Below are positions 10,641-14,210 of a stretch of 64,000 nucleotides of DNA, in pieces (the stretch's first letter is position 1; every line of letters begins with the position of its first letter). The position numbers and the translations under genes are program-made. The stretch is from the NCBI GenBank assembly GCA_018712785.1, contig DVGK01000043.1:1-64000 (forward strand). Reading direction: 5' to 3'. The notes below the pieces were generated by a model. That model saw only the letters and a program-made list of their open reading frames with translations. It was not told where the DNA came from and did no database searches. The DNA is from Candidatus Choladousia intestinavium (GTDB lineage Bacteria; Bacillota; Clostridia; Lachnospirales; Lachnospiraceae).

Positions 10641-12242
10641 TTACACCGGCATGTTTCCGTGCCGTTTTGAAAACGGGTCCGCTTTTTTCCCCTCCAGAAG
10701 CCGAAAGGTTCGGGAAAGTCTTTCTATCGTCTCTTCCGGCAGCAGGATCTCATCCACCGCTCCCTTTTTTGCCGCGAGAAAAGGATTGGAAAAGGCATCC
10801 TGATACTCCTGCTTCCGCTGTCTAAACTCTCCCTCCGGATCCTGGGCGTTCTGAAGCTCTTTTCCGTTCAGGATTCTTACGGCTCCCTCTGCTCCCATTA
10901 CCGCAATCTCCGCAATCGGCCACGCGTAGACGGCATCCGCCCCCAGCGTCCTGCAGTTCATGGCAATATAAGCTCCTCCGTAAGCCTTCCTGAGAATCAG
11001 GGTCACCTTCGGCACGCAGGCTTCCGCATAGCCGTACAGAATCTTCGCTCCGTGGCGGATAATGCCGGCCCGTTCCTGAGCCTCCCCCGGAAAAAAAGCA
11101 GGCACATCCACCAGTGTCAGCAGCGGAATCCCAAAGCAGTCGCAAAAGCGGACAAACCGGGTGATTTTATCCGAGGCGTCGCAATCCAGGGCGCCTCCCA
11201 GGTACGCCGGCTGATTCGCCACGATTCCAAGAACTCTCCGGTCAAAGATCCCCAGTCCCACAACCGCGTTGGGTGCGAAATGTTTCTGTATTTCAAAAAA
11301 GCTTTCATTTCCCAAAAGTTTTTCAATGACTTTGTGTACATCATAAACGCTTCTGGGATTCGCCGGCACCAGTTCTTCAAAGGGCGGATACGTCTGTTTT
11401 TTTTCCGGCTGTTTTCTTCTTGACGCAGGAATTCCTTCCTTCAGGATTCTTGCTCTCTGCTCTTTTACAGCCTCTTCTCCGGAATTTTCAGGAAGGTATC
11501 CGAGAAGCTTACGGATACCGTTCAGACAGGATCTCTCATCCTCGTAAAGGGCATGAGCCACTCCGCTGGCTTCACTGTGGACTTTGCTTCCTCCCAGTTC
11601 CTCCAGGGTAACCTTCTGTCCCAGCACCGCTTCCACTACCTGGGGCCCGGTGAGGCACATCTGGCTCACTCCCTTTACCATAAAGATAAAGTCACAAAGC
11701 GCTCCGGAATAACAGGCCCCTCCTGAACAGGGACCCAGAATTGCCGCTATCTGAGGGATGACTCCGGAAGCTTTTACATGACGGCAGAATATTTTGCCAT
11801 AACCATTCAGAGCCATAATCCCTTCTTCGATTCTGGCTCCCCCACTGTCATCAAGAAAAACAATGGGAATCTTTCTTTCGTAGGCCAGGTCCTGAATCCG
11901 GCAGATTTTCTCCGCCTGTACCTCTCCCAGACTTCCTCCTGCCACGGTAAACTCGCTGGCCGCCACGCAGACCGGCCGCCCGTTGATCTCTCCCCAGCCC
12001 GTAAGCACCCCATCCCCCAGGTATGGCTGCCTTCTGGAAAGAGAATCCTGATCTTTCCGGGTCTCATAAAAGGTTCCGAAAGGATGAAACGTTCCGGGAT
12101 CCAATAAAAACTCCACCCGTTCCCAGGCGGTCATTTTCCCCCGCTGATGCTGCCTTTCAACCTTTTCTCTGCCGCCGCCTTCCTTCTGGCGGCGCCGCAT
12201 TTCTATCGTCTGCTCAATACGGTCCGGCCACATGGTTCCCAT
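10641..12242 (-). CDS. Acyl-CoA carboxyltransferase (methylmalonyl-CoA decarboxylase alpha / propionyl-CoA carboxylase beta type)
   Basis: 533 aa with two carboxyltransferase half-domains (FLDDSGGARIEEGI; GPCSGGACYSGAL; RKAYGGAYIAMNCRTLGAD). Confidence 0.88.
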   Translation of the reverse strand: MGTMWPDRIEQTIEMRRRQKEGGGREKVERQHQRGKMTAWERVEFLLDPGTFHPFGTFYETRKDQDSLSRRQPYLGDGVLTGWGEINGRPVCVAASEFTVAGGSLGEVQAEKICRIQDLAYERKIPIVFLDDSGGARIEEGIMALNGYGKIFCRHVKASGVIPQIAAILGPCSGGACYSGALCDFIFMVKGVSQMCLTGPQVVEAVLGQKVTLEELGGSKVHSEASGVAHALYEDERSCLNGIRKLLGYLPENSGEEAVKEQRARILKEGIPASRRKQPEKKQTYPPFEELVPANPRSVYDVHKVIEKLLGNESFFEIQKHFAPNAVVGLGIFDRRVLGIVANQPAYLGGALDCDASDKITRFVRFCDCFGIPLLTLVDVPAFFPGEAQERAGIIRHGAKILYGYAEACVPKVTLILRKAYGGAYIAMNCRTLGADAVYAWPIAEIAVMGAEGAVRILNGKELQNAQDPEGEFRQRKQEYQDAFSNPFLAAKKGAVDEILLPEETIERLSRTFRLLEGKKADPFSKRHGNMPV

Positions 12243-12387
12243 CCTTTTCTCCCTTTTTTCTGTCCGTGGCTACTATAACATACTCTTCCTCATTCGTAAA
12301 GAACGAAAAATTTATTAAAATCCCTTCTCACCACTCCGCCATGCCAGCTCGATTCCGCTGCGCTTCATCTCGCTGCGGCTGATCGCC

Positions 12388-12601
12388 GTATGGCAAGGGA
12401 ACGGAACACTGCCTTCTGCATGCAAGCATGCACGGCATGTTCCCTTCTCACTGCTCCGCCATACACGCCACAGACCCGTCTGCTCCGCAGACTCTCCGCC
12501 TTTCGGCTCCGGTCTGTGGCTGAATGGGCGTCCCGCCCATTCCCGGAAATGAAACTCCCGACCTTTGCAGATAAATCTGCACGGTCCCGAGTTTCATTTC
12601 C
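12388..12601. repeat. Cluster of four consecutive strong hairpins, some nested
   Basis: Inverted repeats: GTATGGC/GCCATAC with AAGGGAAC/GTTCCCTT; CCACAGACC/GGTCTGTGG; GAATGGGCG/CGCCCATTC; GGAAATGAAACTC/GAGTTTCATTTCC. Confidence 0.8.
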
Positions 12602-12623
12602 TGTATGGCTCTTGACTGGTGAC

Positions 12624-14210
12624 TCACATGAGGGGGGCGACGATTCGGAGAAGCTTTCCCGCTGCCACCCGAAGGAACCGGTCGTGCCGGATATCAAAAG
12701 GAGTAATCAGCCGGCATTTGGGAAGGGTCATGACGAAATCATCTTCTATTTTCTGAATTTCTTCCACTTCATACAGCATGACCGCGCACTCATAATTCAG
12801 ATAAAGGCTGCGGTAATCCAGGTTGATGGCTCCGACCACCGCAATCCGGTCATCACTTACGAAAACTTTTGAGTGAACGAATCCCGGCGTATACTCGTAG
12901 ATCCTGATTCCGGCTTCTATAAGCTGCGCGTAATACGTATGCGCAAGCGCAAAGGCGTACTTTTTATCCGGGATGTGGGGGAGCAGAAGCTTTACATCCA
13001 CTCCTCTTCTGGAGGCGTAAAGCAGCGCCTGAAGAAGCTCATAGCCCGGCACCAGATAAGGAGTCATAATATGAACGTACTGTTTGGCTCCATTTAAAAT
13101 TTCAATATAGACACGCTCCGCTATGCGTTCGCTTCCAAAAGGACTGGTCGCGTAGGGCATTATAAAGCCTTCCGCTTTGCTGAAATCTCCCTTCCGCTTT
13201 TCTCCCTCCCTCAGATACACGGACAGGTTATCCAGCGTCCCGGAGGTTCCCCACATCTTCAGGAACATAGCCGTAAAGCTGGCCGCGGCGTCTCCCTGCA
13301 GCATGATTCCCGCGTCCTTCCAATGTCCGAAGCGCTCCTTGCGGTTAATGTATTCGTCCGCCAGATTCACTCCCCCGGTAAATGCCGTAACTCCGTCCAC
13401 CACAACTACCTTCCGGTGATCCCGGTTGTTATAATGTGTGGAAATCACTGGATAAATGGGTGAAAAGACCTTGCACTGGATGCCGCTTCCCCGAAGAAGA
13501 TTCGGAAAATCATGGGGCAGGTTGGACAGCTCGTTCATGCCGTCGTACATTACTCTTACCTCCACGCCTTCCTCCACCTTGGCTTTGAGGATTTTGAAAA
13601 CAGTATCCCACATATATCCCTCAGCGATAATAAAATACTCCAGAAAAATGTATTTCTTCGCCCGGCTCAGCTCCCGGACCAGGGCCGCGAACTTTTCCTC
13701 CCCGCTGGGGAAATAGGTCACCTTTGTATTTTTGTAAACAGGGTAGTCAGCTACTTTTCGGATATAGCCTGCCAGCTGCGCCACACGGCCCTCCTTTGCC
13801 GCCAGCTCCTCCAGCACCTTCTTATCCTGAGGCGTACTGCCCTTTGTTTTCTCGTCAATCTCCTTCAGGCACGCTTTCATATACTTTGTTCCTGGCTGTA
13901 CCTCTACGTATAGATACAGCAGCCCCCCAAATACAGGCAGCAGCAGCACCAACGCCGTCCAGCTCAGCTGGAAGCCCGGATTATCCGTCCTGTTTATAAT
14001 CAGTGTAAAAATAAGAAAACCAAAGATCAGATATCCTCCAAAAAACCAGTGAACGTACTGTGCCAGAATCTGAAGTCCGACAAACAGCAGCAGACACTGA
14101 AGCAAAAGGCAGATCAGAAGGATCCCAGTTCGCCCGAAGATAATCTTCAGTATACCATTTTTTCCTTTTTTCAGAGATTTTCTACTGATTTCATGCAGCT
14201 GATAATTCAT
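12624..14210 (-). CDS. cls: Cardiolipin synthase (PLD family)
   Basis: Two HKD motifs (HYNNRDHRKVVVVDG; HSKVFVSDDRIAVVGAINLDYRS) and N-terminal TM segments. Confidence 0.93.
   Translation of the reverse strand: MNYQLHEISRKSLKKGKNGILKIIFGRTGILLICLLLQCLLLFVGLQILAQYVHWFFGGYLIFGFLIFTLIINRTDNPGFQLSWTALVLLLPVFGGLLYLYVEVQPGTKYMKACLKEIDEKTKGSTPQDKKVLEELAAKEGRVAQLAGYIRKVADYPVYKNTKVTYFPSGEEKFAALVRELSRAKKYIFLEYFIIAEGYMWDTVFKILKAKVEEGVEVRVMYDGMNELSNLPHDFPNLLRGSGIQCKVFSPIYPVISTHYNNRDHRKVVVVDGVTAFTGGVNLADEYINRKERFGHWKDAGIMLQGDAAASFTAMFLKMWGTSGTLDNLSVYLREGEKRKGDFSKAEGFIMPYATSPFGSERIAERVYIEILNGAKQYVHIMTPYLVPGYELLQALLYASRRGVDVKLLLPHIPDKKYAFALAHTYYAQLIEAGIRIYEYTPGFVHSKVFVSDDRIAVVGAINLDYRSLYLNYECAVMLYEVEEIQKIEDDFVMTLPKCRLITPFDIRHDRFLRVAAGKLLRIVAPLM

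Follow-up and report, generated by a model that had tools for sequence, protein, structure and literature searches.

Bacterial MITEs, such as ERIC, RUP and Correia/NEMIS, are intergenic elements of 100-200 bp that carry terminal inverted repeats (TIRs), are flanked by a target duplication and give transcripts predicted to form stable stem-loops; ERIC and Correia RNA can also affect the neighbouring mRNA, and most families in the review table have 5'-TA termini (reviews PMC2229807, PMC10969869). A second point of comparison is the Clostridiales-1 RNA (RF01699), which was catalogued as a small RNA (sRNA) (Weinberg et al. 2010, PMC2864571).

The locus described here lies in a 64,000-nt stretch of Lachnospiraceae DNA (the window), where a gap of 381 bp (12243-12623) separates cls from a carboxyltransferase/mmdA-like gene. 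A sequence-only reading had pointed to a dense array of hairpins in this intergenic region, which it put at ~380 bp, and had proposed a structured RNA, a 3'-UTR element of cls or a palindromic mobile/REP-like element. The sequence is as it claimed: CCACAGACC...GGTCTGTGG around GTCTG-CTCCG-CAGAC, GAATGGGCG-TCC-CGCCCATTC, and GGAAATGAAACTC...GAGTTTCATTTCC (12545-12557 / 12589-12601) around TGCAGA-TAAA-TCTGCA were all found in place, and the repeat pair it had placed about 120 bp apart is a 22-bp direct repeat at 12321 and 12441, with a spacing of exactly 120 bp. One stem had been misassigned: GTATGGC (12388-12394), taken as part of the AAGGGAAC stem, has its real partner in GCCATGC (12338-12344), and folding paired the AAGGGAAC arm with GTTCCCTT (12439-12446).

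Folding of both strands, which had been proposed as a check, placed the gap far beyond chance, with z = -10.7 (plus strand) and -9.0 (minus strand) compared to dinucleotide shuffles. The hairpins are not independent; on the minus strand, positions 12458-12609 fold as a single four-way junction (element A), in which an outer stem that the earlier reading missed, P1 (GCCATACA/TGTATGGC), encloses a long and bulged P2, a short P3 and a branched P4, uniting the three hairpins in one structure (Table 1). Between the adjoining element B and the carboxyltransferase gene, within window positions 12243-12310, there is a promoter-like stretch, CTTTACGAATGAGGAAGAGTATGTTATAGTAGCCAC (minus strand), that is conserved in two loci of relatives (L036 and L037).

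Table 1. Features of the gap and its flanking genes (window positions).
Feature	Position	Strand	Basis
Carboxyltransferase/mmdA-like gene	10641-12242	-	
Direct repeat copy 1, right end of element B	12321-12342	+	Repeat comparison
Element B, second structured unit adjoining element A	about 12330-12459	-	Sub-threshold Clostridiales-1 match; alone 3' of cls in L037
Direct repeat copy 2, right end of element A / junction with B	12441-12462	+	Repeat comparison
Element A, very probably a MITE core, P1-enclosed four-way junction	12458-12609	-	Covariance model R1, 133.8 bits, E 4.3e-27; fold
P1 3' arm TGTATGGC	12458-12465	-	Fold
P4, branched hairpin GCCACAGACC..GGTCTGTGGC with two inner hairpins	12467-12520	-	Fold, covariation
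P3, GAATGGGCG-GGA-CGCCCATTC	12522-12542	-	Fold, covariation
P2, long hairpin with internal loop and inner GCAGATTTATCTGC hairpin	12545-12601	-	Fold, covariation
P1 5' arm GCCATACA, inner part of left TIR	12602-12609	-	Pairs with 12458-12465; homology with TIR of intact copies
Outer left terminal repeat in decayed form, GTCACCAGTCAAGA (GTAACAGTTCAG where intact), immediately 3' of cls stop codon	12610-12623	-	Inspection against relatives' copies
cls	12624-14210	-	NCBIfam bac_cardiolipin, score above cut-off

Of 60 relatives covered by a plain DNA search, 32 carried similar sequence, and all 32 belong to one genus of gut Lachnospiraceae, that of the window; when these matches were folded, the P1[P2,P3,P4] plan was kept while the stem sequences were largely different. 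The covariance search and the same-genome copy count that the sequence-only reading had also called for were carried out with model R1 (58 pairs, built from 14 of the DNA-search matches). R1 matched 41 of the 47 genomes of the genus; the highest number in one genome is at least 43, and the window's own genome has at least five, these counts being lower bounds because the best candidates per genome alone were scored. Across the family, 21 of 150 genomes matched, the window's own among them, and across the class only three of 291: the window's genome, a second member of its family (E 4e-32) and a weak match in another family. Outside the genus, element A is thinly spread in the Lachnospiraceae and almost missing from the rest of the class, and no match to it was found among plasmids, phages and viral contigs. 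Among named records, the one nearest to the cls of the window is that of Candidatus Choladousia intestinigallinarum, at 95% identity. Two copies elsewhere in the window's genome (L075 and L077, on C125 and C57) carry long P2 stems with almost perfect pairing, and these stems show no sequence relationship to those of other copies.

To analyse ends, orientation and targets, we took 82 high-scoring copies with their flanks. Similarity between young copies stops sharply at GTAACAGTTCAG... and ...CTGAATAGTTAC, and well-preserved copies have a near-constant length, with a standard of 176 bp, which is too short for a transposase gene. These two sequences form imperfect TIRs in most intact copies, and their inner part is the P1 stem. 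Both ends were recognisable in 55 of the 82 copies, which showed 8-bp flanking direct repeats (exact in 18/55, at least 7/8 matching in 24/55; 1.3 expected from flanks re-paired at random) of an A/T-rich target. When the joined flanks of eight insertions were searched in the genus, contiguous matches were obtained for several: the L107 insertion has an orthologous unoccupied site in genome G064, with a single CAGAATTG, and contiguous matches in other genomes for two further joined sites fit empty sites, although they have diverged at the junction. Besides the standard 176-bp form, these ends also occur with other interiors, at recurrent sizes of about 64, 115, 148, 226 and 276 bp, and in L086, from another genus, the same end sequence bounds an unrelated interior with an 8-bp duplication, CAAATTAT. 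Given the dispersed copies, TIRs, target duplications and empty site, the hairpin cluster is very probably a copy of a new Lachnospiraceae MITE family, in agreement with the mobile half of the earlier palindromic mobile/REP-like candidate. A longer subfamily, about 226 bp with its ends (L213; 205-nt matches, e.g., L167, L169 and L172), carries an extra hairpin of ~50 nt in the P3 loop between the same ends.

The window copy itself has a decayed outer repeat (GTCACCAGTCAAGA in place of GTAACAGTTCAG) and no recognisable target duplication, and is therefore old. Its position at cls is common to near relatives, where we found a variant of element A (L036), element B alone (L037), the full element (L039), only P1 (L038) or P1 and P4 (L040) 3' of the gene. 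Together with the sense orientation of the window element and its very stable fold, the presence of related or reduced elements in four of these loci, with a different type in L037, could be read as a cis-acting structured RNA conserved for cls, i.e., a 3'-UTR element, terminator or processing site. We consider this reading very improbable, since the interior at the cls site is freely lost or swapped (L038, L040, L037), and domains lost or exchanged in place speak against a fixed cls function. Moreover, by simple ORF calling the 82 fetched copies are intergenic and follow no orientation rule: where the neighbouring genes are co-directional, 36 are antisense and 21 sense, while 13 lie between divergent and 11 between convergent genes. 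Most adjoin genes other than cls. A sense-strand cis-regulatory role as the defining function is rejected on these orientation counts and the varied genes, and copies that adjoin many different genes in both orientations cannot be defined by the proposed label of a cls 3'-UTR element. The site just 3' of the cls stop codon (window 12610-12626) is a recurrent landing place across species, being occupied by Clostridiales-1 or a related element, by element A or by element B (L219, L220, L223, L291, L036-L040).

Turning to the fold, an alignment of 53 copies, drawn from many genomes and with a median pairwise identity of 0.65, had 94.5% of its cells paired, falling to 34-45% in a slid control with partners shifted by 1-3 columns; as the alignment was fitted to the model, the absolute pairing values lean upward. 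Compensatory change on both sides was found in 56 of the 58 pairs in these copies. The covariation is secure on account of its large effect size and the visibly different perfect stems: the fold has been kept by compensatory base changes over evolution. The sequence-only reading's structured RNA thus holds as regards a conserved, strongly covarying fold, with action as RNA being putative, and the sequence is clearly not the single-copy, non-conserved one without compensatory changes that it had named as the contrary outcome.

For a test of strand, G.U and A.C pairs were counted in structure-blind alignments; under neutral decay the two should be equal, because each G.U is an A.C on the opposite strand. 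Copies from the plain DNA search showed 39-45 G.U vs 15-19 A.C on one strand (95% interval above 1), and the high-scoring, mostly young copies 28 vs 27. These counts suggest between-lineage selection on the strand reading P2-P3-P4, either as RNA or as single-stranded DNA, the G.U excess being suggestive only, because it is modest and the copies share ancestry and are not independent.

An Rfam search with element A, using the window and better-kept copies, gave no family match, and matches to Rfam microRNAs (mir-934 etc.) were far below cut-off and reflect chance hairpin similarity. Element B matched RF01699 over its full length at a sub-threshold 20.1 bits (cut-off 48), and neither A, which had no match, nor B was accepted as a member. 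Clostridiales-1 nevertheless resembles element A in that it is dispersed in the same bacterial family and genomes and has an outer stem around one long internal-loop hairpin and two more; it differs in that its ends are GATG..CATC and its target duplication is apparently 7 bp long. RF01699 is a high-copy dispersed repeat in these genomes, with up to 67 matches (G031). Ends were recognisable in 18 copies, and in 10 of these the 7 bp preceding the left end recurred 3' of the right end, compared to 1.7 expected by re-pairing, a control used because A/T-rich flanks make chance matches common. RF01699 itself looks like a dispersed MITE; we did not find it stated to be a mobile element in the literature searched. 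Its dispersed copies were seen in G031, G024, G121, G008 and G065 (loci L215-L230 and L276-L293).

The likeness to Clostridiales-1, an Rfam sRNA family, along with the strong covariation and the G.U asymmetry, is what would be seen if element A were an independent trans-acting small-RNA gene family spreading by duplication. However, the copies have transposon ends and target duplications and lack a fixed genomic context, element A matches no Rfam family, and Clostridiales-1 itself behaves as a mobile repeat, which makes such an sRNA family improbable. More improbable still is a REP/REPIN-type element, whose hairpins would be recognised on single-stranded DNA by a Y1 (RAYT) transposase. REPs are short palindromes that are moved by Y1 transposases and are not known to make target duplications. 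Multicopy intergenic palindromes are indeed present, and a folded single strand would be in keeping with the strand asymmetry of the G.U excess, yet inverted terminal repeats, an 8-bp target duplication and an empty site with one target are unlike the Y1 signature. The REP half of the earlier candidate thus falls, the element being 176 bp long with an 8-bp duplication, and we give this alternative hardly any weight.

For a MITE, the mechanism would be as follows: a transposase from a separate autonomous element would recognise the ends and move the element as DNA, and the interior would be kept if copies that keep amplifying need one folded strand, as a transcript or as single-stranded DNA. 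Any effect that the element may now have on cls or on the gene downstream of it, through 3'-end protection or termination, would be secondary. As for the autonomous partner, no convergent end pair 0.7-4 kb apart was found at the listed places of G001, G008, G013 and G035. The genomes are draft assemblies in many pieces, from which multicopy insertion sequences can drop out, so the partner may be missing from them. Long end-to-end pairs were considered as autonomous copies, and none of those inspected qualified (L086 and L143 are separate short elements or chance), while a search for ends that run into non-MITE sequence turned up solo ends, deletion derivatives and complete MITEs, and no partner. 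IS66 family ends begin with GTAA and the family makes an 8-bp duplication. As the MITE has both features, IS66 was the best guess for the mobiliser; however, a scan of 20 IS66 loci of the genus gave no end pair in common with the MITE, and IS66 is absent from the genomes richest in the MITE. It was rejected on these grounds.

Taken together, these results remove a false lead, namely that the hairpins are a cls-specific RNA, and define a mobile repeat present across the genus, which can be masked and typed and can serve to follow insertion polymorphism. They also suggest that the catalogued candidate sRNA families include at least one transposable element, RF01699, and that MITEs can be a source of strong covariation in screens for bacterial RNAs. 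It is now a testable question why compensatory changes preserve a fold of 58 pairs in a MITE. One tentative answer, to which we would give less than even weight, is that the element A family, element B and Clostridiales-1 form a class of structured MITEs in Lachnospiraceae with different ends and a common three-hairpin plan; amplification or host tolerance would require a specifically folded strand made from the element, either RNA or single-stranded DNA, such that selection keeps the fold over the sequence.

No description of the element A family was found in the literature searched, which took in a minority of subscription papers. The family is new, though its kind is not, since structured MITEs (ERIC, Correia and others) are well known. 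In line with ERIC, RUP and Correia/NEMIS, it falls in the same size range, is intergenic and has terminal inverted repeats and a target duplication; unlike them, it has other ends and an 8-bp duplication, and its interior is a multi-domain four-way junction that shows compensatory changes across lineages and the gain and loss of domains.
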